Positions 849 to 39,858 of a DNA stretch of 39,882 bases are shown piece by piece; the first letter of the stretch is position 1; each line of letters opens with the position of its first letter. Below the pieces are notes generated by a model. The model searched no databases. It had not been told where the DNA came from and saw nothing but the letters and a program-made list of their open reading frames with translations. A program made the position numbers and the translations under genes. The DNA is taken from positions 1 through 39,882 of the IMG/VR virus record IMGVR_UViG_3300036884_000107; one strand, given 5' to 3'. The DNA comes from a virus.

Positions 849-1174
849 AGGCTTTTCTTCCAATTCATCGGGAGAATGTCTCCCCATACATTTTTCGCTT
901 TTTTAACATCTTTTGGATTGATGCGCTTTGTTCCGTAGGTGTCAATATATTCTTGACTTGCCACGCCACCCCGATAGGGTTGCATAAGGCTTTTTGCATA
1001 TTTAGGACGATCATCTTTAATCCGTTGAGGCATAAATTCTGGGTAAGGAGCAGGAGTAAACCATTTGTCACAAAACCATCCATATCGTTTCCCATCGGGA
1101 GTTTCATATTGTGCATACCTCCAATTAAACGATTTGTGAATACGATGACATAGAGTACAATAGCTACGTTTCAT
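845..1174 (-). CDS. Hypothetical protein with N-terminal CxxC (109 aa)
   Basis: The N-terminus has CTLCHRIH (Cys 6 and 9, His 11) and a further Cys at 35 (WFCDKWF), which could form a zinc site. The remainder is rich in Tyr, Pro and Lys and matches no family I know. It is the first gene of the leftmost operon. A TTGACA-N16-TATACT promoter ends 7 nt before its ATG, so the mRNA should begin at or beside the start codon. GAGG touches the ATG directly and cannot act as a normal Shine-Dalgarno. Confidence 0.6.
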   Translation of the reverse strand: MKRSYCTLCHRIHKSFNWRYAQYETPDGKRYGWFCDKWFTPAPYPEFMPQRIKDDRPKYAKSLMQPYRGGVASQEYIDTYGTKRINPKDVKKAKNVWGDILPMNWKKSL

Positions 1175-1181
1175 CCTCTAT

Positions 1182-1209
1182 AGTATATATCTTATGTCAA
1201 GTATGTCAA
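1182..1209 (-). promoter_or_regulatory. Sigma70-type promoter, leaderless, for the gene at 1174
   Basis: Read on the minus strand, TTGACA (1209-1204) is followed by 16 nt and TATACT (1187-1182). Only 7 nt separate the -10 from the ATG at 1174. The -35 lies inside the last codons of the WbqC-like gene. A second TTGACA lies 9 nt further in but is too close to the -10 to pair with it. Confidence 0.6.
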
Positions 1210-1737
1210 AATCGATGGTTCGGAAATAGTGTCAATAAAGTCTAGTTTTATATTCCCGAACATTTCCTGCGTATAAAGTTTTCTTCCCCCTGGGAGATTC
1301 ACATATGTATCACCCCCCACTGCCTTTACCATGTCAATAACTCCTTGTACAAACTTCCCGTGAGGAAAATATGAGGAGAAATAAAATGGGGTATGAATAT
1401 CTAATTTCTTACATATCTTTTTAAGTGTACGGGCAATATTGTAGGATAAAGTATATTGTTGTTTCAGAGGTTGTAAATACGTATCGGGAAGATGTGTTAC
1501 TCTCACAAACTTCTTTTTATCATCTTCAATATCATAGAAATAAATTTCATTAAATCGAGCATAGTCAGAATGCTTTTTTAATCGAAACGTAAATGGCATA
1601 GGGAAGTTGTTTCTGTTCACCCACCCTCCCTTGATATATTTCAGGTCATCTTCAATGACAAACGCATCGACAGCTTTAATCAAATCGAAGTATCCCCGAT
1701 AAGGAAAAAGATATGGTTGCATACATGCAACTCTCAT
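1192..1737 (-). CDS. WbqC-like family protein (181 aa)
   Basis: The N-terminus (MRVACMQPYLFPYRGYFDLI) followed by D-AFVIEDD-KYIKGGW-NRN matches the WbqC-like family, whose members start with QPY.FPY.GY and carry the downstream D...DD..Y....W.NRN pattern. Family members occur in O-antigen and capsule gene clusters next to DegT aminotransferases, as here. Their biochemical role is not settled; an acyl or aminoacyl transfer to an amino sugar has been suggested. The protein is somewhat shorter than the usual 200-240 aa. Its ATG overlaps the stop of the upstream methyltransferase (ATGA), making it the last gene of the sugar cassette. Its 3' end contains the -35 of the next promoter. Confidence 0.8.
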   Translation of the reverse strand: MRVACMQPYLFPYRGYFDLIKAVDAFVIEDDLKYIKGGWVNRNNFPMPFTFRLKKHSDYARFNEIYFYDIEDDKKKFVRVTHLPDTYLQPLKQQYTLSYNIARTLKKICKKLDIHTPFYFSSYFPHGKFVQGVIDMVKAVGGDTYVNLPGGRKLYTQEMFGNIKLDFIDTISEPSILTYLT

Positions 1738-2273
1738 GGTTGAAGTATTGCTATTCCGTTTTTATACTCTACTCTGGTAATATGTGAATCGGCAACTGCT
1801 TGGATGACATCGGGAAAAGCACTTGTATAGTCATGGCACGCAATATAACTTTTTGGTTTCAAAAAGACTTTCCACTCATTCAATTCCTGTAGTAAATCAT
1901 CGTATGTATGAAGACTATCTAAGAAAAGAAAGTCTATTTTCCAGTTAAACGTCTTGACTACTTCATGGGAGTTTCCCTTGATCTGAAAGATATTCCCGTA
2001 TTTAAGGACTTCCTCATCAATATGCTCTGGAATAATAATATGCCCATTGTCATATTTCGGATTTATTCCTGTTTTATCACAGACATCAATCGTCAGTATT
2101 TTTATTTTAGGATTGGCAAGCCGAAAGAATAAGGTAGATTTACCATGATACGTTCCTATTTCTACTAATAAGGAATTTGGTTTTAACTTTGAAACATATG
2201 GATAGAGCATATCAACGTCCTGTTGAAAGAACCATCCCTCTATTTTATTTATTTCAGGTAGTATTACCGACAT
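1734..2273 (-). CDS. Class I SAM methyltransferase (Methyltransf_24-like, 179 aa)
   Basis: The SAM-binding motif I is LLVEIGTYHGKST (typical E.G...G.S of the Methyltransf_24 / cephalosporin-hydroxylase-like group). It is followed by an acidic strand end (ILTIDVCD) and FLFLDSLHTYDDLLQEL, where the DS.H.Y motif matches the family's D..H.Y metal/substrate region. Proteins of this type act on sugars in glycan clusters. I chose the ATG at 2273, giving a 10-nt overlap with the upstream gene. An earlier ATG at 2309 would add 12 residues of poor match. Neither has a Shine-Dalgarno; TATACT lies 9 nt upstream of the chosen ATG. The neighbours suggest modification of a nucleotide-linked amino sugar or glycan. 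Confidence 0.75.
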   Translation of the reverse strand: MSVILPEINKIEGWFFQQDVDMLYPYVSKLKPNSLLVEIGTYHGKSTLFFRLANPKIKILTIDVCDKTGINPKYDNGHIIIPEHIDEEVLKYGNIFQIKGNSHEVVKTFNWKIDFLFLDSLHTYDDLLQELNEWKVFLKPKSYIACHDYTSAFPDVIQAVADSHITRVEYKNGIAILQP

Positions 2274-2956
2274 ATAGCTAAGAGTATAGCACCACCATCT
2301 TTTCCCCATCTATATTTCATAAGTGCATCAATAAATTTTTGTGTCCATACCTTTCCCTGTTTTTTACAAAGAGAGAGAAGCATAGAATTGGGAAGTGGTT
2401 TATAAAAATATGAGCCAATCGCTAGGCTATCCATTCCCGATTTTTGACAATCTTTTCGTAATAATTCTTTTGTATATACCCGCTTATGTCCATACAATTG
2501 TTGTTCCCGTTTGGAATTATCAAGAATATTGGGGATAATCCCCATAAGCGTTCCAAGTTGCCGAGTGTCAGATTCCGCATTGGGTACTTGAATAATAATT
2601 CTTCCCCTTTTTCGCAAATGTAATTTACAGTTTTTCAATACTCGTACTGGATTGTCCACATGCTCCAAAAGCATATTAAGATTAATCGTATCAAAAAGGG
2701 GAAGTTTGAATGTTTCTCCGTATCCTTGGATATAACGGACTCGTTTATTTTTCTTCCGGGCTATTTCGAGATACTCTTCTGAAGGATCAAGACCAACAAC
2801 GAGCTTGAATTTTTTTAAGAAGAGGGGTGTATACATTCCAATCCCACATCCTACATCCAATAAAGATGTTCCGACTCCTAGTCGTATTGATACTTTTGTC
2901 TGTTCTTTCCCTACCCATTGGTCGAATAAATTGGCTCGTACTTCATTTTCTTTCAT
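2264..2956 (-). CDS. Class I SAM-dependent methyltransferase (Methyltransf_11/23-like, 230 aa)
   Basis: The core is classical: motif I LLDVGCGIGMY, an acidic residue after the next strand (VVGLDPSEEYLEIAR), a motif around INLNMLLEHVDNP, and motif post I/III in GRIIIQVPNAES. The LEHV-NP...L....L..GG/RG..... pattern is that of Methyltransf_11/23 enzymes from glycan and lipid pathways. The start overlaps the TGA of the aminotransferase gene (ATGA). It presumably methylates a sugar or glycan intermediate, made together with the neighbouring aminotransferase. The substrate cannot be read from the sequence. Confidence 0.8.
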   Translation of the reverse strand: MKENEVRANLFDQWVGKEQTKVSIRLGVGTSLLDVGCGIGMYTPLFLKKFKLVVGLDPSEEYLEIARKKNKRVRYIQGYGETFKLPLFDTINLNMLLEHVDNPVRVLKNCKLHLRKRGRIIIQVPNAESDTRQLGTLMGIIPNILDNSKREQQLYGHKRVYTKELLRKDCQKSGMDSLAIGSYFYKPLPNSMLLSLCKKQGKVWTQKFIDALMKYRWGKDGGAILLAICR

Positions 2957-3921
2957 AGTGTCTCCTTTGCTATTTTAATAATTCTATCCTGATCTTTGAA
3001 TGAAAGAGAATAATACAGAGGCAAACAAAGTACCCGACTCATCTTATCTTCTGCAATGGGACACGGTTCTCCACCAAATACTTTATTCAGCGGAGGATAG
3101 AAGTACCGGCGGGGATAGATACCAACTTTCTCGAATACCTTGATTGCACGAAGGACAGCCCTTTCACTTTTATAAAATACTGGATAATAGGTTACGTCTT
3201 TTGCGTTTAGGTGTAATGCCTTGTTGTATCGCTCTATTAGCTTCGCATACTTCTTTACTGTGTCGTCTACTGTTTCCAAACTGCAAAGTCCCATAGCCGC
3301 TTCAAACTCGTTCATCTTGAAATTAACTCCTACGCCTTGGAATGAATACTGAGTCTCAAATCCATAATTCCTCATCCATCGGGCTTTCTCTGCTATCTCA
3401 TCGTTATTTGTTACCAATGCTCCACCCTCTATAGTCTGGAATATCTTAACTGCATTGAATGAAATAATAGAACAATCCCCATAGGTTAAGATAGACTTTC
3501 CGTTTATCTTGGTTGCAAATGCATGGGACGCATCATAAATAACTACATTACCTGTCGGTGTGTAATTAGGTACACCATATATATGAGTAACAAGTGAGGG
3601 AGATGGTATGTCTTTTCCTATATCGACAAAGTGTACTTTTATTCCCATCCATACTGGCGCTGATACGGTAGCGATAAAAGAATAGGGAGATACATAAAGT
3701 TCTTTTATATCTAGCGCTTTGAGGGCAATCATCAATGCAGCTGTACCGGAAGATACACACACTACATTCTTTACTCCAAATCTCTTCTCCAGTTTCTTTT
3801 CTAACTCTTGTATGAGTTCACCATTATTCGTCAGCCAGTTAGACTTCCATATCTTTTTTAGATAATGGTTATATCGTTCTAATGTAGGTAATCGTGTCCG
3901 TGATACAAATATTTTTTTCAT
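2953..3921 (-). CDS. DegT/DnrJ/EryC1/StrS-family PLP aminotransferase (322 aa)
   Basis: A sugar aminotransferase of the DegT/DnrJ/EryC1/StrS family. From the chosen ATG at 3921 it shows the N-terminal LTNNGELIQELEKKL, the SSGTAAL phosphate-binding turn (residues 58-63), the PLP-pyridine Asp in YDASHAF (D130) and the Schiff-base Lys in SFNAVKIF (K159), followed by TIEGGALVTN. These enzymes transfer an amino group to keto-sugar nucleotides. It is shorter than the usual 360-400 aa, with a compressed C-terminal half. The ATG at 3921 overlaps the TGA of a small upstream gene (ATGA); the earlier in-frame ATG at 3945 has no ribosome site. It leads the surface-sugar cassette. Confidence 0.88.
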   Translation of the reverse strand: MKKIFVSRTRLPTLERYNHYLKKIWKSNWLTNNGELIQELEKKLEKRFGVKNVVCVSSGTAALMIALKALDIKELYVSPYSFIATVSAPVWMGIKVHFVDIGKDIPSPSLVTHIYGVPNYTPTGNVVIYDASHAFATKINGKSILTYGDCSIISFNAVKIFQTIEGGALVTNNDEIAEKARWMRNYGFETQYSFQGVGVNFKMNEFEAAMGLCSLETVDDTVKKYAKLIERYNKALHLNAKDVTYYPVFYKSERAVLRAIKVFEKVGIYPRRYFYPPLNKVFGGEPCPIAEDKMSRVLCLPLYYSLSFKDQDRIIKIAKETL

Positions 3922-4058
3922 TGTTTTTGATATACCTTTCCCCATCCATCATGCGGGCCGTATGATCCACGCTTTCTTCTAATTGTTACCGTACAAAAGT
4001 GCCGCTTGAATAAGGGTTTAATCCCTCCACATTTTGTACATCTATCAAACCATCTCAT
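3918..4058 (-). CDS. Zinc-ribbon-like small basic protein (46 aa)
   Basis: This short ORF has a good ribosome site (GGAGAAGAT ATG) and its TGA overlaps the aminotransferase ATG, so it is very likely expressed and couples translation of the sugar operon. It has CxxC at residues 7-10 (CTKCGG) and H20-x-C22, a possible zinc ribbon, and a basic Gly-rich tail. Function unknown. Confidence 0.6.
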   Translation of the reverse strand: MRWFDRCTKCGGIKPLFKRHFCTVTIRRKRGSYGPHDGWGKVYQKQ

Positions 4059-4294
4059 ATCTTCTCCGTTTGATACACTCAGTAGGTTATCGTTTTAGTA
4101 CAAGACCTTTCGGTTTCACGACATGACGATAACCAATTCAATGTACCAATCCTTTCTTGTTGATAGATAGATGGTTTAGACTAAAAAAACAATCCAAAAC
4201 TCCCATTTCCATATACGAAACCTAAACTTAATAGTTATTGTTGTTCCTGCTTTTTGCGCTTTTTCAAACATATACCCTACCATTCATCTATCAA
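4059..4294 (-). other. Intergenic leader of the sugar cassette with a 9-bp stem structure
   Basis: About 236 nt without a secure gene. It holds an inverted repeat GGTTATCGT (4085-4093) / ACGATAACC (4126-4134). Inside its loop is a smaller hairpin, ACC-GAAA-GGT on the minus strand. No U-run follows, so it is not an ordinary terminator. A weak 31-aa ORF (4176-4271) lies in the same gap. The position 27 nt before the ribosome site of the 46-aa gene suggests a regulatory leader. Confidence 0.4.
4176..4271 (-). CDS. Possible hydrophobic micro-ORF (31 aa)
   Basis: ATG to TAA with a strongly aromatic, hydrophobic C-terminus (RIWKWEFWIVFLV) and a poor ribosome site (TAGGG). It could be a tiny membrane peptide or simply chance. 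Listed because the gap otherwise has no gene. Confidence 0.2.
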   Translation of the reverse strand: MFEKAQKAGTTITIKFRFRIWKWEFWIVFLV

Positions 4295-4465
4295 CTACTT
4301 ACTCGCTTTTATCCCAACCGAATAATAACTGTGCCATCCCTTTTTCTCTTTCTCTAAAATAACTTTATCGCCCATATTGAACTTTCCATATTTCTTTTGA
4401 CGCCAATCAAGAGCTTTCAGTGTTTCCGTAATTGCTTCTAAATCCGTTAAATTATGAATACCCAT
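4295..4465 (-). CDS. Hypothetical small protein (56 aa)
   Basis: Preceded by a strong Shine-Dalgarno (GGGAGGTG, 6-7 nt before ATG at 4465) and following directly on the repeat linker at 4489-4507, so it is very likely translated. Composition is ordinary: a Leu-rich helix in the first 20 residues, then FNMGDKVILEKEKKGWHSYYSVG, a short beta-like segment. No family recognised. It is the last gene of the nin-like block before the sugar cassette leader. Confidence 0.6.
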   Translation of the reverse strand: MGIHNLTDLEAITETLKALDWRQKKYGKFNMGDKVILEKEKKGWHSYYSVGIKASK

Positions 4466-4488
4466 ATTCTTTCACCTCCCCTTCATAG

Positions 4489-4507
4489 TACAGATGCCGT
4501 TAGGCTA
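4489..4507 (-). repeat. Intercistronic linker A, copy 1
   Basis: A 19-nt sequence present three times without mismatch (also 4695-4713 and 4941-4959). On the minus strand it reads TAGCCTAACGGCATCTGTA: it carries the end of the upstream gene (GCC TAA), a small GCC-TAAC-GGC hairpin and leads into the ribosome site of the next gene. Confidence 0.85.
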
Positions 4508-4688
4508 AACCTTTATCAATACAATCTAAAAACCACATAATCCAAGCTCTACCCGAGGGTTGTTGCGTTCCATCGGGATTTGAATGATTTAATAGATTAT
4601 ATTTTCTAATAACTTCTTGCGTCAGAGTTGTTTCCGATTTTATTGTATCTGCCCGTTTTCGTAATTCACTTGTTGTATATTTTTTCAT
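4500..4688 (-). CDS. Hypothetical small protein (62 aa)
   Basis: A charged N-terminal helix (SELRKRADTIKSETTLTQEVIRKYNLL) followed by a Trp-rich C-terminus (GRAWIMWFLDCIDKGLA). No family recognised; the arrangement might be a small DNA- or protein-binding helical bundle. Its last codon and stop come from linker A copy 1 and its ribosome site (GAGG close to ATG) from linker A copy 2. This shows that the gene is a unit flanked by the same linker on both sides. Confidence 0.6.
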   Translation of the reverse strand: MKKYTTSELRKRADTIKSETTLTQEVIRKYNLLNHSNPDGTQQPSGRAWIMWFLDCIDKGLA

Positions 4689-4694
4689 ATCCTC

Positions 4695-4713
4695 TACAGA
4701 TGCCGTTAGGCTA
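4695..4713 (-). repeat. Intercistronic linker A, copy 2
   Basis: Identical over 19 nt to copies at 4489 and 4941. It joins the gene at 4706-4927 (whose VA-stop it encodes) to the gene starting at 4688. Confidence 0.85.
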
Positions 4714-4927
4714 CCAGTTTTTTTATATCTACCAATAATTTCTCAAATGATGTTTGCGCTTTTTTCTTAAATTCATCCATAATTTGAATGTTTATCTCTT
4801 TCATAAGTTCTTCTATTGTTGTATCTTTTTTACCACTATATTTTTGTAAAACTTTTATTGCTTCATTTCGTATAAATTGTTCAATTCCCAAATCTATTAG
4901 CATTTCGTTTAGGTTATTATTTTTCAT
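4706..4927 (-). CDS. Hypothetical helical protein (73 aa)
   Basis: Mostly alpha-helical by composition (long Leu/Ile/Lys/Glu heptad-like stretches, for example TTIEELMKEINIQIMDEFKKKAQTSFEKLL broken by few helix breakers). No recognised family. The ATG at 4927 has a strong ribosome site, GGAGGTGAACT. The last codons GTA GCC TAA come from linker A. Confidence 0.6.
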   Translation of the reverse strand: MKNNNLNEMLIDLGIEQFIRNEAIKVLQKYSGKKDTTIEELMKEINIQIMDEFKKKAQTSFEKLLVDIKKLVA

Positions 4928-4940
4928 AGTTCACCTCCTC

Positions 4941-4959
4941 TACAGATGCCGTTAGGCTA
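4941..4959 (-). repeat. Intercistronic linker A, copy 3
   Basis: Third perfect 19-nt copy. Here the upstream gene ends one frame differently (GTG TAG at 4957-4959), so the linker tolerates fusion to different reading frames. Confidence 0.85.
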
Positions 4960-5122
4960 CACCTTTATTTCTACAGTACAAATTGTGTCGTTTTTACTAC
5001 CACCATGCGCTACAAGTAAAATGCGTGTTATCTCAAATCCTCTGTTTTTTCCGCACCCGTTACTATTCCAACCGAAACTAATTACTTTGCCCCAATGAGT
5101 TTTGATAATAATCTGTTTTCAT
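4957..5122 (-). pseudogene. Frameshifted small gene (about 54 aa if repaired)
   Basis: An ATG at 5122 with a good ribosome site (CAGGGAGT from linker B) opens a frame that stops after 14 codons. The +1 frame, however, is open for about 51 codons down to the TAG in linker A copy 3, and its product looks like a real protein (KTHWGKVISFGWNSNGCGKN...). Removing one A from the AAAA run just after the ATG would join the two into a 54-aa protein. Either a sequencing or assembly error, a recent inactivating mutation, or slippage at the A-run could explain it. No family recognised. Confidence 0.5.
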
Positions 5123-5124
5123 AC

Positions 5125-5144
5125 TCCCTGTACCTATAAAAGGA
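5125..5144 (-). repeat. Intercistronic linker B, copy 1 (long form)
   Basis: A 20-nt sequence, TCCTTTTATAGGTACAGGGA on the minus strand, identical at 5367-5386 and 6446-6465. It contains the GGGAG ribosome site of the following gene. The core CCCTGTACCTA (plus strand) is also in the two short forms at 6031 and 6216. Confidence 0.85.
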
Positions 5145-5145
5145 A

Positions 5146-5337
5146 TTATTCTTCTTTTTTTACTTTTGTTCTATAACTTTCCGCAATTTCCTTTATCGCT
5201 TTCCAATGCGCCATAAGCTCGTTGTAGTGTTTATCGCTCACCCGCTTATCTATCGTCAGGGTAAAGTTTGCACCCACTCCCTCAAATCCTTCTTCCCGTT
5301 CGTCTATTAAATCCTTAAAGAAAAACTGTAATTCCAT
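5146..5337 (-). CDS. Hypothetical small acidic protein (63 aa)
   Basis: The composition is acidic with a beta-like middle (GVGANFTLTIDKRVSDKHYNEL) and a helical, charged C-terminus. No family recognised. It has a strong ribosome site (AAGGAGGGTAGT ATG) and its stop abuts linker B copy 1. It sits in the run of tiny nin-like genes downstream of the C5 methyltransferase. Confidence 0.6.
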   Translation of the reverse strand: MELQFFFKDLIDEREEGFEGVGANFTLTIDKRVSDKHYNELMAHWKAIKEIAESYRTKVKKEE

Positions 5338-5366
5338 ACTACCCTCCTTCTAAATGTTTTTATATT

Positions 5367-5386
5367 TCCCTGTACCTATAAAAGGA
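5367..5386 (-). repeat. Intercistronic linker B, copy 2 (long form)
   Basis: Identical over 20 nt to the copy at 5125. It directly follows the TAG of the C5 methyltransferase gene; here the true ribosome site of the next gene lies further downstream. Confidence 0.85.
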
Positions 5387-6031
5387 CTAGACTAAATTGA
5401 TTTGATTTCCGATAATTTGTTTTACTTCTAGGGCTTCATTGAGAATATGCAGACCTGTTTCCGGCTCAACACAATTCCGGAGTATCTGGTTCTTATCAAT
5501 TCCTGTATATCCCGATAAATCAAATCCTTTAATTGCTTTAAGTTTATCTATTCCTTCAAAATGTCCCCGACTTTTCCGTTTAATCTCCCGTATGGGAAAG
5601 TTGGTCCAGAAATAGTGTTCTGCTAATTTTCTCGGTTTTATAAGAGGGTCGTAATAACTTATAACATTTTCTACTACATATTTACCTTTGAACCCGCTAT
5701 TTTCCAGTTTATACATATGCTGTAAAAATATAATTTCCTCGTACAAACGCATATCCGGAAAGACTGGCTTATTCTGTCCCCGTCCTACTCCCGCTTCATT
5801 TCGTATTCTTGAATGTGTGGGACACGGCGGACTACTCCATATAAAGTCAAACTCCATGTAATGCTCTAAAAGGTATTTGTGAGCGTCGGTTATCTCAATC
5901 TTATCCTGGGGAAAGAAGTCATGATAAATAGAGGCTATCTTCGGGTCAAGCTCAACCGCCGTAACCTCATGGGTATCACCCCATAGCTTCCTATTACCGC
6001 CTATGCCTGCATATAAATTAAGTATTCTCAT
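5387..6031 (-). CDS. C5-cytosine DNA methyltransferase, short phage form (214 aa)
   Basis: Motif I is LNLYAGIGGNRK at the N-terminus, followed by VTAVELDP (motif II acidic residue). The catalytic Pro-Cys loop is SSPPCPTHS (C70, motif IV) and motif VI is VVENV (E121-N122-V123). These are the diagnostic residues of C5 cytosine methyltransferases. At 214 aa it is much shorter than the usual 300-400, leaving a minimal target-recognition region; the final QILRNCVEPETGLHILNEAL replaces the normal motifs IX-X. No restriction partner is adjacent, so it is an orphan, probably protecting phage DNA from host restriction. The ribosome site AGGGAGGGAT comes from linker B. Confidence 0.82.
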   Translation of the reverse strand: MRILNLYAGIGGNRKLWGDTHEVTAVELDPKIASIYHDFFPQDKIEITDAHKYLLEHYMEFDFIWSSPPCPTHSRIRNEAGVGRGQNKPVFPDMRLYEEIIFLQHMYKLENSGFKGKYVVENVISYYDPLIKPRKLAEHYFWTNFPIREIKRKSRGHFEGIDKLKAIKGFDLSGYTGIDKNQILRNCVEPETGLHILNEALEVKQIIGNQINLV

Positions 6032-6052
6032 ATCCCTCCCTGTACCTAGACA
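6031..6052 (-). repeat. Intercistronic linker B, short form, copy 3
   Basis: A 22-nt stretch identical to 6216-6237. On the minus strand it runs from the end of one gene (GTC TAG) through GTACAGGGAGGGAT to the next ATG, so stop, spacer and ribosome site are all inside the repeat. Confidence 0.85.
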
Positions 6053-6216
6053 AAATACTTTTGATATTTTTTAACTCTCGCCCATGCAGTAGCAACCCAT
6101 ATTCCATATAAGTCAGCAATATGTTGATATGTCCGTCCTTTTAAGCGCAAGTCATAGAGCGGCTTGTAACTTTTAATCTTAGAACCCCATCTTTGTAATA
6201 CAAATTCTCTTTTCAT
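6046..6216 (-). CDS. Helix-turn-helix protein (56 aa)
   Basis: The C-terminal half (LRLKGRTYQHIADLYGIWVATAWARVKKY) fits a tri-helical HTH of the resolvase/sigma-like type: G-R-TYQHIA-LYG is helix 2 and turn, ATAWARVKKY the recognition helix. The true start is the ATG at 6216, placed just after the AGGGAGGGAT of linker B; the longer open frame upstream lacks a ribosome site and would read through the linker. A single small HTH without other domains suggests a regulator or a DNA-binding accessory protein. Confidence 0.65.
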   Translation of the reverse strand: MKREFVLQRWGSKIKSYKPLYDLRLKGRTYQHIADLYGIWVATAWARVKKYQKYFV

Positions 6217-6237
6217 ATCCCTCCCTGTACCTAGACA
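6216..6237 (-). repeat. Intercistronic linker B, short form, copy 4
   Basis: Identical over 22 nt to 6031-6052. It joins the zinc-ribbon gene at 6231-6440 to the HTH gene at 6216. Confidence 0.85.
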
Positions 6238-6440
6238 TCTAAAAAGCCTGTTGTTTCCCACTTCTTTTCACAATCTGGACAAATACCTTCAAAGCTATCT
6301 CCATCTTCATCTTCTGAAATACTTGAATACTCTGAATTTCCCCATTCACTTCCACTAAACTCTTGCCCACACGCAGGACAAGGAAGCCAAAAATATCCAA
6401 ATACTTGTGCGCCTACTTTATGTATCAATCTATTTTTCAT
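6231..6440 (-). CDS. Zinc-ribbon protein (69 aa)
   Basis: From the ATG at 6440 (ribosome site AGGGAGAAAT from linker B) the protein has CPAC near residue 22 and CPDC near residue 54, separated by an acidic, Ser-rich loop (SEYSSISEDEDGDSFEG). This is the pattern of a two-knuckle zinc ribbon. It might bind nucleic acid or act as an inhibitor or adaptor of a host enzyme. The frame is open for 47 more codons upstream, but that part reads through the linker and has no start signal. Confidence 0.6.
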   Translation of the reverse strand: MKNRLIHKVGAQVFGYFWLPCPACGQEFSGSEWGNSEYSSISEDEDGDSFEGICPDCEKKWETTGFLDV

Positions 6441-6445
6441 ATTTC

Positions 6446-6465
6446 TCCCTGTACCTATAAAAGGA
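6446..6465 (-). repeat. Intercistronic linker B, copy 5 (long form)
   Basis: Third 20-nt long-form copy, between the zinc-ribbon genes at 6231-6440 and 6466-6651. Confidence 0.85.
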
Positions 6466-6651
6466 CTACTGTCCCAATCTACATTTACAAATCCTACAAC
6501 CCGTATAGTATTTCCCTGTACAGACCATAACGCCACCGCTATATCCTTCCATATGTTTATATTCTTTTGTATCGGGAACAACTACCGATATAGGATTTCT
6601 ACAATGACATTTTTTATTTTTAGCGTAAAATTCAATAGTTATACTATTCAT
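6466..6651 (-). CDS. Zinc-ribbon-like protein (61 aa)
   Basis: The chosen ATG at 6651 has a good ribosome site (GGGGAGAGAAGT). Cys pairs occur near the N-terminus (KCHC) and at the C-terminus (GCRICKC), with another Cys at MVCTG; together these could bind one or two zinc ions. No named family. It follows the NinG gene by 13 nt in the same operon. Confidence 0.55.
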   Translation of the reverse strand: MNSITIEFYAKNKKCHCRNPISVVVPDTKEYKHMEGYSGGVMVCTGKYYTGCRICKCRLGQ

Positions 6652-6664
6652 ACTTCTCTCCCCA

Positions 6665-12160: not shown

Positions 12161-12188
12161 ATTATAGTCTTTTTAGAGGGTTTGTCAA
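12161..12188 (-). promoter_or_regulatory. Perfect consensus sigma70 promoter, near-leaderless
   Basis: TTGACA (12188-12183), 16 nt, TATAAT (12166-12161). The -10 ends 10 nt before the ATG at 12150, leaving a 5' UTR of only about 3-4 nt. The -35 includes the TGA of the gene at 12185. It separates the late lysis genes from the early block and probably drives the early block leftward. Confidence 0.75.
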
Positions 12189-13616: not shown

Positions 13617-13625
13617 ATTATACCA
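13617..13625 (-). promoter_or_regulatory. Extended -10 promoter of the endolysin gene
   Basis: TG-G-TATAAT on the minus strand, with GCACCT between the -10 and the ATG at 13610 (6 nt). No good -35. Transcription would start at the A of ATG. Confidence 0.6.
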
Positions 13626-16177: not shown

Positions 16178-16183
16178 ATTATA
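16178..16183 (-). promoter_or_regulatory. -10 element of the gene at 16171
   Basis: TATAAT overlapping the end of the upstream gene (AGG TAG TATAAT), 6 nt (AAGAAT) before the ATG. No TG extension and no -35, so weaker than the others. Confidence 0.45.
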
Positions 16184-24916: not shown

Positions 24917-24925
24917 ATTATATCA
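24917..24925 (-). promoter_or_regulatory. Extended -10 promoter of the adaptor gene
   Basis: AGG-TG-A-TATAAT then TTAAAT-C spacing of 6 nt to ATG at 24910. It is nearly identical in sequence to the portal promoter (AGGTGATATAATT in both). Confidence 0.65.
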
Positions 24926-25593: not shown

Positions 25594-25623
25594 ATTTATT
25601 CTCCTTTCTAATTATATAACATT

Positions 25624-27514: not shown

Positions 27515-27520
27515 ATTATA
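27515..27520 (-). promoter_or_regulatory. -10 element of the gene at 27506
   Basis: GCG TAG TATAAT at the end of the preceding gene, 8 nt before the ATG. No TG extension or -35. Confidence 0.4.
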
Positions 27521-29029: not shown

Positions 29030-29038
29030 ATTATATCA
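29030..29038 (-). promoter_or_regulatory. Extended -10 promoter with short leader, gene at 29009
   Basis: TG-A-TATAAT, followed by CTAAT and AAAGGAG, so here a leader with a Shine-Dalgarno is predicted. This differs from the leaderless set. Confidence 0.55.
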
Positions 29039-29057: not shown

Positions 29058-29588
29058 TTAGACAGCCGAAATATTGCCGTCGGAAGAAATTGGATAGAAA
29101 TTACAATAGAACGTAATCGCTCCGAGTGAGGTATTATTGGTTGCATAACAGAATTCAATATTCGTAGTTGTTCCTGTTTTTTGAACAACAACAAAGGGCA
29201 TAAAAACGTCAGGAGCAGTAGCTGCTACCGGGTCCATGACTCTTTCTTGAGAATTATCATTTAATGTCAACGCTACTCCTGCAACACTTAATCGTACAAG
29301 AGATGATCCGATACCTGCGCTCGAAAGTGTTGTACCTGTATTAAGAGAGATATTTGATTGATTGGTTGCATCATTTAATCTCCAATAAGCTGCGGTGACA
29401 TTAGACCCCAAAGCAGTGGTTACAACACCCCAAAGAGCTCTGACATTCACCGTTCCCGTTACCGTAAATATCGCTGAAGTAACGGTTCCATTAGCCGTGA
29501 GGGAAAACGCTTTAGTTACCTGAACTCCATAACGGGTTAAGGGAACTCGGTTAGCATCTCTCGGAACTGAAGCGGTTAAAGTAGACAT
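29058..29588 (-). CDS. Virion surface protein, beta-rich (176 aa)
   Basis: Thr/Val/Ala-rich strands throughout (AFSLTANGTVTSAIFTVTGTVNVRALWG, LVRLSVAGVALTLND), a common build for head decoration or tail proteins. It opens with PRDANRVPLTRYGVQ, close to the start of the protein at 27210. TATAAT lies exactly 6 nt before the ATG and no Shine-Dalgarno exists, so the transcript should be leaderless. Confidence 0.5.
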   Translation of the reverse strand: MSTLTASVPRDANRVPLTRYGVQVTKAFSLTANGTVTSAIFTVTGTVNVRALWGVVTTALGSNVTAAYWRLNDATNQSNISLNTGTTLSSAGIGSSLVRLSVAGVALTLNDNSQERVMDPVAATAPDVFMPFVVVQKTGTTTNIEFCYATNNTSLGAITFYCNFYPISSDGNISAV

Positions 29589-29594: not shown

Positions 29595-29600
29595 ATTATA
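29595..29600 (-). promoter_or_regulatory. -10 element of the gene at 29588
   Basis: TAG-TATAAT-AAGAGT-ATG: six nt from the -10 to the start codon. The sequence around it is nearly the same as at 16171 (TAG-TATAAT-AAGAAT-ATG). Confidence 0.5.
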
Positions 29601-30556: not shown

Positions 30557-30581
30557 AAACTCATTATACCAAAATGAGTTT
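30557..30581 (-). promoter_or_regulatory. Extended -10 promoter inside a 9-bp inverted repeat
   Basis: TG-G-TATAAT (30571-30563) ends 6 nt before the ATG at 30556. AAACTCATT (30557-30565) and AATGAGTTT (30573-30581) form perfect 9-bp arms around a 7-nt centre, overlapping the -10. It could be an operator or chance. Confidence 0.5.
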
Positions 30582-33026: not shown

Positions 33027-33063
33027 ATTATTCTCCTTCGGTTAAATTTGTATTCTAAGACAC

Positions 33064-33090
33064 AAAAAAATCCACTGGCTAAAGTGGATT
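33064..33090 (-). terminator. Rho-independent terminator in the major capsid leader
   Basis: On the minus strand AATCCACT (33090-33083) / AGTGGATT (33076-33069), 6-nt loop, followed by a run of seven T overlapping the stem. It lies between the promoter at 33118-33110 and the ATG at 33026. Confidence 0.7.
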
Positions 33091-33109
33091 AAGTATCCTA
33101 TTACTTTCT

Positions 33110-33118
33110 ATTATAACA
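33110..33118 (-). promoter_or_regulatory. Extended -10 promoter ahead of the capsid terminator
   Basis: TG-T-TATAAT on the minus strand. Transcripts from here meet the terminator about 20 nt into the leader, so the capsid gene would depend on antitermination or on read-through. Confidence 0.55.
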
Positions 33119-33993: not shown

Positions 33994-34005
33994 AGGTTTA
34001 TCTCC

Positions 34006-34515
34006 TTATGGATACATTATATCATTTTTAATAATATTCAAATGGGCGTACTCCCCAAAATATTTTACTGCGGCCTCATTATATACTTTTGCTGCCTCTT
34101 CTTTCGTAAAATAACAACCCAAATAAATGTATTTTCTATTTACCATAATTGATGCAGACCATGGCCTATTTCCTTTTTTGGCAATCCATAATTTTTTTCT
34201 TTGTTTATTAAAATTTTTAACCCCTCTATATCCGCTTTCTGGAAGAGATTTTCTAATAATATTATGATGATTTTCTGCACCTGTACATATTCGTAAATTT
34301 TCTTTTCGGTTATCAAGGGTATTATGATTAATATGGTCTACCTGTTTTCCCTTTGGACAGTGCATTATTTCTCTATGTAAATATTTACGACCTAAATCAC
34401 GTATTGCATATCCATTTTTATTTTGAAGATATTGCCATTTCCATTGAGATAACCATCTAAAATCCTCATCATCAACAATGGAAACTTTCCCTTTAGTAAG
34501 AGGTATATATTTCAT
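34006..34515 (-). CDS. Free-standing HNH homing endonuclease with AP2 domain (169 aa)
   Basis: The HNH core is LHREIMHCPKGKQVDHINHNTLDNRKENLRICT (split: H48-R-E, VDHINHN, DNR-ENL), and residues 95-165 are an AP2-type DNA-binding domain (SGYRGVKNF...WSASIMVNRKYIYLGCYFTKEEAAKVYNEAAVKYFG split by loops). This is the classical HNH-AP2 homing endonuclease, a selfish mobile gene. It is inserted between two virion genes without breaking them. Its last codons contain the -10 element of the scaffold gene. Transcribed from its own TG-T-TATAAT, 8 nt before the ATG. Confidence 0.9.
   Translation of the reverse strand: MKYIPLTKGKVSIVDDEDFRWLSQWKWQYLQNKNGYAIRDLGRKYLHREIMHCPKGKQVDHINHNTLDNRKENLRICTGAENHHNIIRKSLPESGYRGVKNFNKQRKKLWIAKKGNRPWSASIMVNRKYIYLGCYFTKEEAAKVYNEAAVKYFGEYAHLNIIKNDIMYP
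34016..34024 (-). promoter_or_regulatory. Scaffold promoter inside the end of the homing endonuclease gene
   Basis: TG-A-TATAAT made of the codons AAT GAT ATA ATG near the end of the endonuclease gene. The leader to the scaffold ATG carries AAGGAG. Confidence 0.55.
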
Positions 34516-34523
34516 ATACCTAT

Positions 34524-34532
34524 ATTATAACA
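34524..34532 (-). promoter_or_regulatory. Extended -10 promoter of the homing endonuclease gene
   Basis: TG-T-TATAAT, 8 nt before the ATG at 34515. The context GTGTTATAATA is shared with the capsid leader promoter. Confidence 0.55.
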
Positions 34533-34548
34533 CAATTGAGGAATTTCC

Positions 34549-35133
34549 TTATTTCTTTTCCCACTTTTTAGCAGAATAGGCGGCGAAACTTAGCTTCTTT
34601 GATTTCTTTCCCCCACCCTTACCAAAGTCTTTATCTACTATTTCATGTATCTGTTTTTTCGCTGGATCTTTATGCTCATGGTGTTCCCAATCTTTTTTTC
34701 TATTTTCACTCTCTTCATGATGATAGTATTTATCTCGTGCTTTATAGGGTTCATTTCCCCAATGTTCACGTTCATCTTCGGGTGGACTTCCTGGATCTCC
34801 ACTTCCTCCACCTTTTCCACACCCTTTTCCAATTTTCTTGTAAGTCATGTTATCCCCATCTCCCCCGCCTTTACCTTTTTTTATGTGGTCGTGAGCAATT
34901 TGATCAGTCGTCTTTTTAGAGAACTCAGGATGCTCTTTATGCTCTTTCTCTTCTGCTTTTTCTTCTTTAGCTCCATGATGAACTTCACCTTTTTCTTCTT
35001 TCTCATGTTTTTCTCCTTTTTCCTCTTTATTTTCTACTTTTTCATCTTTCTTTTCGTCTTTTTCCTCAACCTTTTTAACTGTCTTTTTGAACAGTCTCAT
35101 TTTACCGTCGATTTTTCTCATTACTAATGACAT
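34549..35133 (-). CDS. Lys/Glu/His-rich protein of the head block (194 aa)
   Basis: Highly charged throughout: KKVEEKDEKKDEKVENKEEK, a Gly-rich middle (GKGGGDGDN, KGCGKGGGSGD), and a His/Glu-rich region (YYHHEESENRKKDWEHHEHK). No family recognised; it is certainly disordered in large part. Between portal and scaffold, a packaging, scaffold-like or minor head role is likely. The ATG at 35133 has AAAGGAGAAATCT; the open frame begins ten codons earlier but lacks a signal. Confidence 0.55.
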   Translation of the reverse strand: MSLVMRKIDGKMRLFKKTVKKVEEKDEKKDEKVENKEEKGEKHEKEEKGEVHHGAKEEKAEEKEHKEHPEFSKKTTDQIAHDHIKKGKGGGDGDNMTYKKIGKGCGKGGGSGDPGSPPEDEREHWGNEPYKARDKYYHHEESENRKKDWEHHEHKDPAKKQIHEIVDKDFGKGGGKKSKKLSFAAYSAKKWEKK

Positions 35134-35151
35134 AGATTTCTCCTTTATCTT

Positions 35152-35159
35152 ATTATACA
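35152..35159 (-). promoter_or_regulatory. -10 element of the Lys/Glu-rich gene
   Basis: TG-TATAAT at the very end of the portal gene (GTA TAA T), followed by AAGATAAAGGAG. The TG touches the -10 with no spacer base. Confidence 0.4.
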
Positions 35160-37228
35160 CCACCTAACATTCCATTACTTGGACTCGCTTGTACTCCCAT
35201 AGGCGGTGCGGATTGCATAGTCGATGTATTGACTGGTGCGGGTCCTACAGCTCCACCAACTGATGGCGGTACTTGGGGAGTTCCCGGTGGCGGTCCTAAC
35301 GGACCTGTTTGTTGCGCCCCAGGAGGCGGAGCTTGTGGACCCATTCCTGCTACAGGTTGGGCAGGCGCATTCAAAATGTTCAATGCTCCCTGTAGAGGAG
35401 TGGTTTTCATCACATATTTCATCAAATATCCATTCGGATCTTGTTGCATCATCATCAACTTCTCCGTCCGACCTTCAGGATCGTTCATATCCATGTCTTC
35501 ATAGAAAGATATTAAATCAACCATCTTCAACTTTGCCATATTCATAGCGTTATTCTGTCTGTTCTGTTTATCCGTACCAGAGGCTTTAATCTTGACATCC
35601 ATCCCCTCTTCAATCATATTAGAATTCATCTTAATAAATGTATACGTTCCTTTCATACCCAGTAATTTGGTCATATGATCCTTGGTATATCTTAGTTTAA
35701 TCATCTGCATGATCCAATCAGCCATCCATTCAGCGGCATTATTGATTGTTTCCTCAGTTATATCGTCAATTCGAGTGTAATTGGCCTCTCTAGCAATCTG
35801 ATTCGAGGTAGCGACATTGGTTTGAAGATTACCAGTTAAATTGGTAGCACCTGCTAAACTGAACATTCTCTCTCTAGCGAGTTTTAATTCCCCAAATTCC
35901 TGTTGGGTGGGTTGCTCTGGTGGTATAAAATCGTGAACCCTATGTGTATCTCCATCAACCAGTAAATCTTGATCAGGATTATTCATATCCGTTCTCTCAA
36001 TATCTTTTCCTGTCATTCCGGACTCTTTACTAAAAACATGCTTCCCCCGTTCCTTCAGTTTTTCAATAATCCGTTTCCCGATTTGATCCATGTTCTCCTG
36101 GTTGTAGATGTTCTGTTCAATGCGAGAAGTTTCATCATAGGCTACTTTTCCCCATTGGTCATATCCCATGAAAAAATAAGGTTTATGGGGCATATCGAAG
36201 TAATTTCGATAGACTGTATCTTTCTGAATCGGAATGGGCTGCCCCATGGCTGCCATAAGCAGGTCCTGTGGAGAAGCTTCTTGCCGACTCGCCTTATCAC
36301 CGGGCGTCTGATATTTGAAATACTTTTCCGTCCCCTCATAGTCATAGTTGGGATTCTTCATCTTCTTTAGAATACAATCCCCATACTTCCAGAGAACGCC
36401 CTCAATTCTTTCCCATTTATTATCGTCTTTTTTGTTATACCACGTAAACCATACTTCCCAGATTTTGATTGTTGTAGCCATCTGTTTCCACTTCTCATCT
36501 TCTTTTAATTTAATCCCGTTTTTAATAAGTTCTTTGGTAAACTCTTCCTCAGAATCGGGAAATCGCATGATGACTTCCTGAACAGTTAATTTCATGGCCT
36601 GAGCGATAAACTTCATATCATCAGCGTTATTGGTTGGACATTGCTCATCAATAATGACATTTTCAGGATGGACGTTCTCAAATTCATAATCCCCTGTTTC
36701 CCCTTTTTCCGGATTCCATCTCACTTTAATAATTCCCGTGTAATAGACAGGAAGATGTTTGAATGCAATAGAAAGGATTTTTCTCGTCTCCCGTTGTTTT
36801 AATTCCGCATCAATCATTAAAGAAACATTCTTAGCTATATCAATACTTTCAGGATTATCATTACCCGGTAAAACGATCATATCTGGTAAACGACTCATAG
36901 CAACGGGCTTAATTGAGGCTTCTATTTCATAAATCGCATTATCCAAATACTTCGCTTCGTAGGGTCTGATTTTATTCTCTGATATTTGTGAGGCGATCTG
37001 ACGGCCAAATAACATCAATTCATTCTTTACCCTGCGGGTATCCAGTCGGTATTTGGGACCATTAAAAAATGTTTTGGAATCTTCAATGCGCTTATCGAGG
37101 ACTTTAACTAATTCTTTATCTTCTATCTCTAAGGCTAACGGATCAGCTTCACTGACTACCCCATCACGGGCTTCGACAGGATTCTCAATACTGGTTTCCC
37201 TGAGTAAATTAAACGGAGATTGCAACAT
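35153..37228 (-). CDS. Portal protein, P22-like length (691 aa)
   Basis: The dodecameric DNA gate. The length, the N-terminal ring region (VARDGVVSEADPLALEIEDKELVKVLDKRIEDSK...) and conserved stretches such as RWNPEKGETGDYEFENVHPENVIIDE, AYDETSRIEQNIYNQENMDQIGKRI split by loops, SLAGATNLTGNLQTNVATSNQIAREANYTRIDDITEETINNAAEWMADW fit a P22-type portal. The C-terminal 90 residues are Pro/Gln/Gly-rich (APPPGAQQTGPLGPPPG). It starts 6 nt after TG-A-TATAAT with no Shine-Dalgarno. It comes right after the zinc-ribbon gene and terminase. Confidence 0.8.
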   Translation of the reverse strand: MLQSPFNLLRETSIENPVEARDGVVSEADPLALEIEDKELVKVLDKRIEDSKTFFNGPKYRLDTRRVKNELMLFGRQIASQISENKIRPYEAKYLDNAIYEIEASIKPVAMSRLPDMIVLPGNDNPESIDIAKNVSLMIDAELKQRETRKILSIAFKHLPVYYTGIIKVRWNPEKGETGDYEFENVHPENVIIDEQCPTNNADDMKFIAQAMKLTVQEVIMRFPDSEEEFTKELIKNGIKLKEDEKWKQMATTIKIWEVWFTWYNKKDDNKWERIEGVLWKYGDCILKKMKNPNYDYEGTEKYFKYQTPGDKASRQEASPQDLLMAAMGQPIPIQKDTVYRNYFDMPHKPYFFMGYDQWGKVAYDETSRIEQNIYNQENMDQIGKRIIEKLKERGKHVFSKESGMTGKDIERTDMNNPDQDLLVDGDTHRVHDFIPPEQPTQQEFGELKLARERMFSLAGATNLTGNLQTNVATSNQIAREANYTRIDDITEETINNAAEWMADWIMQMIKLRYTKDHMTKLLGMKGTYTFIKMNSNMIEEGMDVKIKASGTDKQNRQNNAMNMAKLKMVDLISFYEDMDMNDPEGRTEKLMMMQQDPNGYLMKYVMKTTPLQGALNILNAPAQPVAGMGPQAPPPGAQQTGPLGPPPGTPQVPPSVGGAVGPAPVNTSTMQSAPPMGVQASPSNGMLGGV

Positions 37229-37234
37229 AGTTCA

Positions 37235-37243
37235 ATTATATCA
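37235..37243 (-). promoter_or_regulatory. Extended -10 promoter of the portal gene
   Basis: AGG-TG-A-TATAAT-TGAACT-ATG: six nt from -10 to ATG at 37228. Leaderless transcript predicted. Confidence 0.65.
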
Positions 37244-37258
37244 CCTCGTAAGAGAACC

Positions 37259-37549
37259 TTAGTCTATATCGACTATATGTATATATTGTTTGCATTTGAA
37301 ACACTGCAAGATAAGGGGAGGTGTATAGGGGGTGGAACCTCTGGTAATAGAAATGACTTTCCCCGCATACTGAAAGAGCGGGTTCTGACAATTCCAACAA
37401 AAGAAAATATGAAGATCGGGATTTACTTTTCCTTCAAAATAATAATGCCCTTTATGAATATACTGAGGGGTCTGAATCACCACGGAGGTTATGTCAATAC
37501 TTTTGACCTTCGTTCCGAATGTTACTTTGTCGTAAACGGTTACATCCAT
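37259..37549 (-). CDS. Zinc-ribbon protein of the packaging block (96 aa)
   Basis: The N-terminal half is beta-like (MDVTVYDKVTFGTKVKSIDITSVVIQ), followed by FFCWNCQNPLF and a second pair LQCFKCKQYIHI, together one zinc ribbon. It lies between large terminase and portal. The ATG at 37549 follows the terminase stop by one base with AAGGAATAAT as ribosome site; the open frame upstream runs through the terminase gene. A packaging accessory role is possible. Confidence 0.6.
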   Translation of the reverse strand: MDVTVYDKVTFGTKVKSIDITSVVIQTPQYIHKGHYYFEGKVNPDLHIFFCWNCQNPLFQYAGKVISITRGSTPYTPPLILQCFKCKQYIHIVDID

Positions 37550-37550
37550 A

Positions 37551-38999
37551 TTATTCCTTAAAATATACCCCTCGTTTTTTTGTATAGGGATCGGCAAACC
37601 TTGAGGGGTCTAACGAAACGTATTCCCCTTTTAGATTTACAATCGTAAACTTCGGGTGAAGGAGGTTATTATCCTTAAAACCAAACTGCCCACTTTTTAC
37701 ATTCGTCCATTTCAACATAGAAACAAGATAAGAAAGAGCGTCAACCCAGTGATCCTCTGCCCAGTCATTGTCTATTTGTTCTTCTAAATTTTCATCATAC
37801 ATCGCCTCTGGAATAGTTTTAATTAAATGTCGGCAATTATCCGTAATTTTCAAATATGGCTCCCCATCAGGGGCGAGAGAGAGCCAATTATGAATAGACT
37901 CAACATTCTGAAGTCTATTGTGTGATCCTTTTTGGACATACACTCCATCTTTCCGAAACTGATCTGCAATACTAAATGTAGCATCCTGTAATTTATTAAA
38001 CATCGCAGGGTCGCCATAGAATTTAATACGGGAAAATTCTGGCATGTCCCGTTTGAAAATAATAGCCCACTTTTCGGGGGTTGTTTCTATCCCGTCAATT
38101 TCTCTATAAAGAACAAGACGAGAAAACTTTATTCCCTGGTAATCTTGTGGGAAAATAGCTCCAACTAATAAAACTGTAGGAGCTGCATATCCCCAATCAA
38201 TTCCTGCCACTCGTGCATATTCCGGTTTTGGAATAAGAGGATTAATGACATGAATATCCCGACTAAACTCCATGAATACCTGACCTTCGAAGATATCCCA
38301 ACTTCCTTCTAAATACGCTTTTCTCTTCTTTAAGGGGAGGGCTTCCAGTTGTTTAATGTAATCTGGGTTAATATATTTATTGTCATACGCATTAGCATGG
38401 ACGTAACTAAATCTCTTCTGTTCGGGATCATCGGCTAACTTATCAACAAAGAACTTCCGAACCCACCCATGTCCTACACCACCGGGGTTAGAGGCGCCCA
38501 TAAACTTCACATCCAAAACACCGGGAAAACGTAACCTGTTTCTTAAATCCTGGAATGTGGTTTCAGGGGTTCTTGTTAACTCTTCGACAAACTCACCGGC
38601 GAATTCAGAGGACATATATTTAGACGGATCATCTAAATTACGTAGTAATATACGGGCTCCCCCATACTCTTCCCTGATAAAAAAGGCATACCCCTCGTTT
38701 TTGTCTTCCTTTAATTCTCCCAAATACGGAGGGAATTCCCGTTGGATTCTGGAGATTTGCCGGTCTTTGAGGGTTGGATAATCTTCTGAGAAAAGACCAA
38801 CGGGTAACCCTTTAATATTATATTTATGGGAACACCAGAGGGCGTAATACAGAGCAGCCCACCTTAAAAGATAACTCTTCCCTCCTGCCATAGCCCCTCC
38901 ATATAACAAATACTTGGTCTGGGGATTAAACAACAAATCAAGCGCTTCTTGTTGTTTGGGTTGAAGATTCATTAACTGACGGAGACCTACTCGTTCCAT
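37551..38999 (-). CDS. terL: Terminase large subunit (482 aa)
   Basis: ATP-driven DNA packaging motor and nuclease. Walker A is GGAMAGGKS (residues 34-42), Walker B/coupling lies around ARILLRNLDDPSKYMSSEFAGEFVEELTRT, and the nuclease domain starts with the metal-binding Asp in VAGIDWGYAAPTVLL, then FYGDPAMFNKL and the DNDWAEDHWVDALSYL end with D and DA. These are the marks of the Terminase_6/RNase H-like group. It is preceded by a 300-nt gap and a TG-A-TATAAT element 6 nt before the ATG, so a leaderless mRNA is predicted. Confidence 0.9.
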   Translation of the reverse strand: MERVGLRQLMNLQPKQQEALDLLFNPQTKYLLYGGAMAGGKSYLLRWAALYYALWCSHKYNIKGLPVGLFSEDYPTLKDRQISRIQREFPPYLGELKEDKNEGYAFFIREEYGGARILLRNLDDPSKYMSSEFAGEFVEELTRTPETTFQDLRNRLRFPGVLDVKFMGASNPGGVGHGWVRKFFVDKLADDPEQKRFSYVHANAYDNKYINPDYIKQLEALPLKKRKAYLEGSWDIFEGQVFMEFSRDIHVINPLIPKPEYARVAGIDWGYAAPTVLLVGAIFPQDYQGIKFSRLVLYREIDGIETTPEKWAIIFKRDMPEFSRIKFYGDPAMFNKLQDATFSIADQFRKDGVYVQKGSHNRLQNVESIHNWLSLAPDGEPYLKITDNCRHLIKTIPEAMYDENLEEQIDNDWAEDHWVDALSYLVSMLKWTNVKSGQFGFKDNNLLHPKFTIVNLKGEYVSLDPSRFADPYTKKRGVYFKE

Positions 39000-39299
39000 A
39001 CAATGATTATATCAAATACGCTAATAACCCATAGTATGTTAGTAAACATTTGAGAGTAGGAAATTGGTGGGGGGAGGTACCATATACTGTTACAACAGCC
39101 TAGTTAACGACTCACTTATTGATGAACGAAGCTATGGCTTGGGGCTATGGAGTGCGCTACATGGACTAGTCGTACAATAATCATTATGCGACGTATACTA
39201 GCCTCATACCTGTACATACTGTACCTATAGGTCTATGTATACCTGTATGTACTACAGGACTGTATATACTAGTGTGCCTCTAGGCAGGGCATAGCGCTA
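39000..39299 (-). other. Repeat-rich noncoding gap between terminase genes (possible pac/regulatory site)
   Basis: No convincing gene on either strand; the best frame is about 33 codons. The 39205-39275 part is dense in TACAG/CTGTA words: TACAG-T, TACAG-G, GTACAG-T and their inverses. They form a perfect hairpin CCTGTA-GTACA-TACAGG (39242-39258) and CCTATAGG. CTGTACCTATA (39219-39229) equals the core of linker B. The right place for a packaging-initiation or TerS-binding site. The terL promoter closes it at 39006-39014. Confidence 0.5.
39006..39014 (-). promoter_or_regulatory. Extended -10 promoter of terL
   Basis: TG-A-TATAAT-CATTGT-ATG: six nt from -10 to start. No -35 of note. Confidence 0.65.
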
Positions 39300-39842
39300 T
39301 CATACTGCATCATCTACAGGTGCTATAGGTTGTGCTGTATCACTGTCTCCTACCTCTTCCCCTTGTATAGGCTCTTGTGTGTTTGAGGCGGTAGTACCGT
39401 CTAAGACTAGCATCTTGTCTATTGTTACATTAGTCGTTGCTACTTCCAACCGTTTCTTGAGAGTTAGGGCTGTAGTTAAATACTTGTGCCTAGCGTTCCA
39501 ATCTGGTACATCAATGAAATCACTAGTACTTGCTGTTGCATCTTTCCCCATAGCTCCTACTGTCTTATTAGCATCTAGCCCACTATCAAGCCTCGATAGT
39601 AACTTGTGATCTGTTATTCCCATATACTCCATGAGTAGAGGATAGTCTATTTTCTTTAGGTTATCTGATGCTATGGTTCTTGCACTGTTTTCATCACATT
39701 CATATGCTTTCATAGCACTTTTAACTGCTTTTCCTGTCTTTATGTATCTTCTGAACCAGTCTACTTGTTTTATAGATAGAGTCTTTTCTTTATTTTTCAT
39801 TATCTTTGTTACTGGTATGGGTGTATGTTGTAGGTGAGGCAT
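39300..39842 (-). CDS. terS: Terminase small subunit (180 aa)
   Basis: The N-terminal DNA-binding part is helical (SIKQVDWFRRYIKTGKAVKSAMKAYECDENSARTIASDNLKK split by a loop; G-A..A..AY is typical of TerS), followed by MEYMGITDHKLLSRLDSGLDANKTVG, then DVPDWNARHKYLTTALTLKKRL, the usual D.R.Kyl..alklk end. The last 45 residues are Thr/Ala/acidic. It recognises the packaging site and feeds the large subunit. Codon and word use (many CTA/TAG words) differs from the neighbours. TG-T-TATAAT lies 7 nt before the ATG. Confidence 0.75.
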   Translation of the reverse strand: MPHLQHTPIPVTKIMKNKEKTLSIKQVDWFRRYIKTGKAVKSAMKAYECDENSARTIASDNLKKIDYPLLMEYMGITDHKLLSRLDSGLDANKTVGAMGKDATASTSDFIDVPDWNARHKYLTTALTLKKRLEVATTNVTIDKMLVLDGTTASNTQEPIQGEEVGDSDTAQPIAPVDDAV

Positions 39843-39849
39843 ATACTGT

Positions 39850-39858
39850 ATTATAACA
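39850..39858 (-). promoter_or_regulatory. Extended -10 promoter of terS
   Basis: TG-T-TATAAT with 7 nt to the ATG at 39842; the first promoter of the late block in transcription order. Confidence 0.6.

Follow-up and report, generated by a model that had tools for sequence, protein, structure and literature searches.

Extended –10 boxes set at start codons point to leaderless genes in a phage family probably associated with Patescibacteria

The window, by which we mean the whole 39,882-base stretch of virus record IMGVR_UViG_3300036884_000107, has a GC content of 39% and carries practically all of its genes on the minus strand. Family searches named terS, terL (PHROG 2 / PF04466), the portal gene (PHROG 156) and the genes for the major capsid protein (MCP), a GT2 glycosyltransferase and a CHAP endolysin-like protein, and no tRNA genes were found in the window. 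The subject of this analysis is a set of –10 promoter hexamers that lie immediately upstream of the start codons of several genes that lack a Shine-Dalgarno (SD) sequence. All boxes described below were read on the minus strand, upstream of the respective start, and the distance d is the number of nucleotides between the end of the –10 hexamer and the start codon.

At d=6, an exact TATAAT precedes the ATG of seven genes: terL (ATG 38999, box TGATATAAT at 39006..39011, with terL of the relative L014 showing the same 6-nt distance), the portal gene (ATG 37228, TGATATAAT, 37235..37240), the GT2 glycosyltransferase gene (ATG 30556, TGGTATAAT, 30563..30568), a gene starting at 29588 (TATAAT preceded by TAG, 29595..29600), a 321-aa gene (ATG 24910, TGATATAAT, 24917..24922), a 111-aa gene (ATG 16171, TATAAT preceded by TAG, 16178..16183) and the CHAP-domain endolysin-like gene (ATG 13610, TGGTATAAT, 13617..13622). 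The original prediction had counted nine such starts; its two further ones, 14093 (TATACT at 6 nt, but opening only an 18-aa frame) and 9318 (TACAGT ahead of a 56-aa frame), are probably no members. A perfect 9-bp inverted repeat (30557-30565 / 30573-30581; AAACTCATT / AATGAGTTT) encompasses the –10 box of the GT2 gene and may represent an operator or mark where the preceding gene ends.

Slightly larger distances were found at a few additional genes. The box of terS (ATG 39842, TGTTATAAT, 39850..39855) is exact at 7 nt, whereas ATG 1174, which had been assigned to the same distance, is preceded by TATACT (1182..1187) with AGAGG directly after the box and represents a weaker member. Both sites proposed at 8 nt carry an exact TATAAT, namely ATG 34515 (TGTTATAAT, 34524..34529) and ATG 27506 (TATAAT preceded by TAG, 27515..27520). 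A TATAAT does lie 10 nt upstream of ATG 12150 (12161..12166), but it lacks the TG and is a doubtful member. That most boxes carry an upstream TG is correct for five of the seven exact d=6 sites, 39842 and 34515, but 29588, 16171 and 27506 carry TAG.

This arrangement is far more frequent than expected by chance. When the upstream 40 nt of all 283 ATG-started open stretches in the window were subjected to dinucleotide shuffling, an exact TATAAT at d=6 was expected before 0.25 ATG frames on average (maximum of 3 in 300 shuffles), compared with the seven observed. The coding strand contains 38 copies of TATAAT and the opposite strand 11, and on the opposite strand none of the exact copies is located 6-8 nt before any ATG. 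The predicted separation of two types of starts was also confirmed: a 4-nt SD core at SD spacing is present at none of the listed starts and at about 35 other starts of the window.

To place these sites in a family context, viral contigs were scanned with terL and portal, which yielded about 90 loci; the portal alignment was used for the collection scan because the MCP alignment was too diverse. In the 72 non-redundant loci (0.90 Mb) on which the family statistics are based, exact TATAAT boxes occur 74, 20 and 15 times at d=6, 7 and 8, compared with 3.9, 4.3 and 4.1 in shuffles (maxima of 7, 10 and 12 in 60 shuffles). The distance distribution is hence not flat, neither in the window nor in its relatives, but shows a clear excess over shuffles at d=6. 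Among the family sites at this distance, 64% show TGn, 84% a pyrimidine at –1 and only 4% an SD core, and no –35 signal rises above control motifs. The start codon at d=6 is ATG in 56 cases, GTG in two and TTG in none. An open reading frame starts within 100 nt of 171 TGnTATAAT boxes of the family; for 62 of them d is 6-8, and none of these 62 has an SD.

The upstream regions of orthologous genes are otherwise unlike, yet the box is kept 6 nt before the GT2 gene, the gene starting at 29588 (orthologues in L091, L009 and L008) and many portal genes, the portal box being found at 5-8 nt in about 15 relatives. The spacing at the GT2 gene is shared by L003 and L034, while L001 has TATACT. The N-termini of terL and portal are conserved and align from the box-proximal AUG in several relatives with an offset of 0, so wrong start calls can be excluded for these two genes. 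A comparison of L028, L032, L043, L080 and L083 with L003, L090, L014 and the window reveals that the family spans nearly SD-free to SD-rich genomes. Three control phages of about 35% GC contain hardly any sites at d=6-8: none in Lactococcus phage TP901-1, and one each in Bacillus phage SPBc2 (first 50 kb) and Staphylococcus phage 96. The single sites in these AT-rich Firmicutes phages are due to chance.

By portal and MCP, the TM7 phage DolZOral124_53_65 (MG269973) and an unassigned spring phage are the best named relatives. Relatives of the portal protein are encoded on just two genome contigs, each of them a whole phage-sized contig, one in a metagenome-assembled genome (MAG) of Patescibacteria and one in a Brocadia MAG. 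The latter contig (L090, PHFX01000165.1; 39,780 bases in a Candidatus Brocadia MAG) belongs to the same phage family and is probably mis-binned. We took the Patescibacteria genome binned with a relative as candidate host and sampled 668 kb of it, excluding the phage contig. The same box at the same spacing was recovered here as in the relatives, with 23, 18 and 11 sites at d=6, 7 and 8 compared with about two in shuffles, and these boxes precede housekeeping-type genes such as those for a class I tRNA synthetase, a Mur ligase and a T2SSE ATPase. Across 96 Patescibacteria genomes, TGnTATAAT-N6-ATG was found 483 times, compared with 71 occurrences at a spacing of 15 nt, 52 of the reversed pattern and 55 with GTG, the last number being at the level of the control patterns. 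The trait is unevenly distributed, with no site in 12 of the 96 genomes. In 59 genomes of Planctomycetota, the phylum of Brocadia, 272 Mb of sequence contain the motif 77 times; of the five sites in the Brocadia bin, two are on the phage contig.

Bacterial –10 hexamers end six bases ahead of the transcriptional start site (+1). A box at d=6 therefore places the predicted +1 at the A of the AUG, and a leader of one or two nucleotides is possible because some boxes are located at 7-8 nt. We consider it highly probable that about ten genes of this phage are transcribed from extended –10 promoters into leaderless mRNAs, and that the phage uses a start grammar of its host phylum beside SD-led starts. 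According to this model, TGnTATAAT would act as a strong extended –10 element that needs no –35 region and would drive about ten genes, among them terS, terL and those for the portal, the glycosyltransferase and the CHAP endolysin. Transcription would be initiated by the σ70-type housekeeping polymerase of the host, at the A of the AUG or 1-2 bases earlier, and host ribosomes would recognize the 5′-terminal AUG without SD pairing. Most likely, this start-site grammar is that of the host phylum, which the phage would use in addition to SD-led starts. Support for the originally proposed leaderless reading comes from the spacing peak, the TGn, the pyrimidine at –1, the lack of an SD, the specificity for AUG and the recurrence in relatives.

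Several observations weigh against this interpretation. Some of the sites lie at 7-8 nt, and while one relative was binned with Patescibacteria, another was binned with a Brocadia MAG. Of 144 CRISPR spacers, drawn from loci near cas1 of 18 Patescibacteria genomes, none convincingly matches the phage family. An MCP profile run against 380 Patescibacteria genomes matched only the known bin and none of the 379 others, and by tetranucleotide usage the Patescibacteria bin did not stand out. Moreover, the nearest named relative, the TM7 phage, which shares a homologous portal (23% identity) and MCP (33% identity), differs from the window in being mostly SD-led with leaders and has only two exact d=6 sites. 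Patescibacteria are the probable host group of the window phage. As a side observation, one spacer (L135) shows a weak match to the spring phage L012 (MW202566, ∼3119-3242), with 88% identity over 34 nt inside a tandem repeat.

The original prediction had offered two explanations: the host may be proficient at initiating on leaderless mRNA, or there may be a phage-specific switch. The evidence favors the former, since the pattern is found on the chromosome of the candidate host and is widespread in Patescibacteria, and the layout looks like a host habit shared by the phage rather than a phage invention. A switch would imply a phage-encoded factor that steers polymerase or ribosomes independently of the host, in agreement with a pattern spanning structural and lysis genes of the phage. 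We consider this improbable: an identical combination of box, spacing and AUG bias is encoded in the chromosome of the candidate host and across Patescibacteria, and the –10 element is that of a plain σ70 extended –10 promoter. Marginally less probable still is that the boxes are true promoters but translation begins at a downstream codon behind a normal leader. For terL, a GGAGG is indeed located 4 nt before the in-frame ATG 38891, but the alignment of the terL and portal N-termini from the first AUG contradicts such a late start, and promoter placement alone would not predict that the d=6 excess is specific for ATG and absent for GTG and TTG. That AT-rich spacers before ATG yield TATAAT by chance, as the 39% GC content and the AT-rich intergenic gaps might suggest, is next to impossible, since dinucleotide shuffles, the opposite strand, other distances and the three 35% GC phages all fail to reproduce the excess and the family-level numbers (74 sites vs. 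at most 7 in 60 shuffles) refute it.

We also considered loss of the anti-SD sequence as the cause of the leaderless layout. This explanation was rejected: CCTCC is kept in 28 of the 31 Patescibacteria genomes in which the 16S end can be read, and the genes of the candidate host (G002) are themselves enriched for SD sequences. The 3′ end of the 16S gene of G002 (L156, G002:C10 ∼223632-223679) reads GGATCAATTAAAC in place of GGATCACCTCC, which is likely an insertion or an assembly effect. Because the anti-SD is kept in 28 of these 31 genomes, leaderless starts appear to be an added mode in Patescibacteria that supplements SD-dependent initiation rather than replacing it.

In addition to the boxes at start codons, the window contains –10 boxes of an SD-led class: TATAAT at 35152..35157, 18 nt before ATG 35133, the interval containing AGGAG; TATAAT at 34016..34021, 22 nt before ATG 33993; TGATATAAT at 29030..29035, 20 nt before ATG 29009; and TATAAT at 25611..25616, 17 nt before ATG 25593. 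The predicted leaders of these four genes are only about 11-16 nt long and just hold the SD. A further –10 box, TGTTATAAT at 33110..33115, belongs to the major capsid gene and is followed by a candidate structured leader (33056..33103, predicted 5′ end at 33103), after which come an SD and ATG 33026. This leader consists of SL1 (33086-33098), the terminator-like SL2 (33069-33090) with a U-run to 33064, and the closing strand P1′ (33056-33063). Elsewhere in the window, the genes at 1192-3945 (WbqC-like, two methyltransferases and a DegT/DnrJ aminotransferase) suggest a sugar/surface-modification cassette.

A terminator-like hairpin with U-run about 15-22 nt after the –10 box was found at the capsid gene of 44 loci including the window and at the portal gene of about 20. 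In the structured portal and MCP leaders of about 50 relatives, SL1 shares a strand with SL2 and P1 is optional. While 58% of the terminator-like hairpins in the family are preceded by such a –10 box, this is the case for only 4% in the candidate host. The combination of promoter and structured leader is specific to the phage family. Since hairpin formation was the selection criterion, pairing within the hairpins themselves does not count as a test, and permutations address the extra strands only. In 50 of 59 cases, the strand just upstream of the hairpin shows complementarity of at least 3 bp to the foot of its left arm, whereas 1000 permutations gave 18.3 such cases on average and never more than 30; the extra pairing of capsid leaders with the sequence after the U-run scores 5.27, compared with a maximum of 5.21 in 500 permutations. 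In a number of relatives, the ATG directly follows the U-run without an SD; an offset of the aligned N-terminus makes some start choices behind the U-run uncertain. No Rfam match at gathering score was obtained in the window or six relatives.

Tentatively, and with somewhat less than even confidence, we propose that one class of extended –10 promoters gives rise to three designs of 5′ ends, the third of which would serve the capsid and portal genes as an attenuator or SD-independent translation element of a kind not described before. The first design would be leaderless (d=6-8), the second would have a minimal SD leader, and the third a structured leader of about 40 nt. In the latter, a 5′ strand X would pair with X′ to form SL1, and X′ could also form the terminator-like SL2 with its U-run; alternatively, the 5′ strand of MCP leaders could close onto the sequence after the U-run (P1). 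Such a leader may serve as an attenuator, a 5′ stabilizer or an SD-independent translation element. We treat it as a finding separate from the leaderless promoters and possibly the newer of the two. The Start-Associated Sequences of Cluster K mycobacteriophages (PMC3203893) are likewise repeated elements with inverted repeats at many translation starts within one phage, but they are a conserved 13-bp sequence of non-structural genes, whereas the leader described here varies in sequence, is conserved in structure and is located before MCP and portal.

Leaderless starts of the Actinobacterial/mycobacterial and Deinococcus type use GUG besides AUG and a weak TANNNT box. With these transcripts (PMC4633059, PMC3898074), the sites described here share the placement of +1 at the start codon of many genes and the parallel use of SD sequences. 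The originally drawn parallel to these groups holds in part: here, a near-consensus TATAAT preceded by TGn forms the box, and GTG is not enriched as a start (56 ATG vs. 2 GTG in the family, 483 vs. 55 in the phylum). More similar are the TA-led leaderless genes surveyed by Zheng et al. (2011; PMC3160421) in 953 cultured-type bacterial genomes, in which candidate divisions are unmentioned. Shared features are a TATAAT-like –10 signal centered about 12 bp upstream of the start, the lack of an SD, a TG before the box in low-GC genomes and the coexistence with SD-led genes; in our data, the signal peaks above shuffles at about 12 bp (second base) upstream, again without SD. The sites described here differ in occurring in a phage family and in Patescibacteria genomes and in using AUG only. 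Single leaderless phage genes of the λ cI type, also mentioned in PMC3160421, have an mRNA beginning at the AUG as well, but the pattern described here concerns about ten genes in each genome, among them packaging, portal and lysis genes, as read from sequence. Our literature search, which did not cover subscription papers, turned up unrelated mentions only and no report of a leaderless signature in Patescibacteria or their phages. The predicted signature is of the known TA-led kind, in a new lineage and with AUG-only use.

Patescibacteria are a very large and mostly uncultured group, and in these bacteria and their phages, starts will be misplaced or missed by gene finders relying on an SD. 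The leaderless box would provide a cheap sequence signature for phages of Patescibacteria, and the putative leaderless phage genes would be ready reporters of how small, reduced ribosomes start on 5′-terminal AUGs. Since a single family ranges from SD-rich to nearly SD-free, the exchange of one start mechanism for the other should be traceable on orthologous genes.
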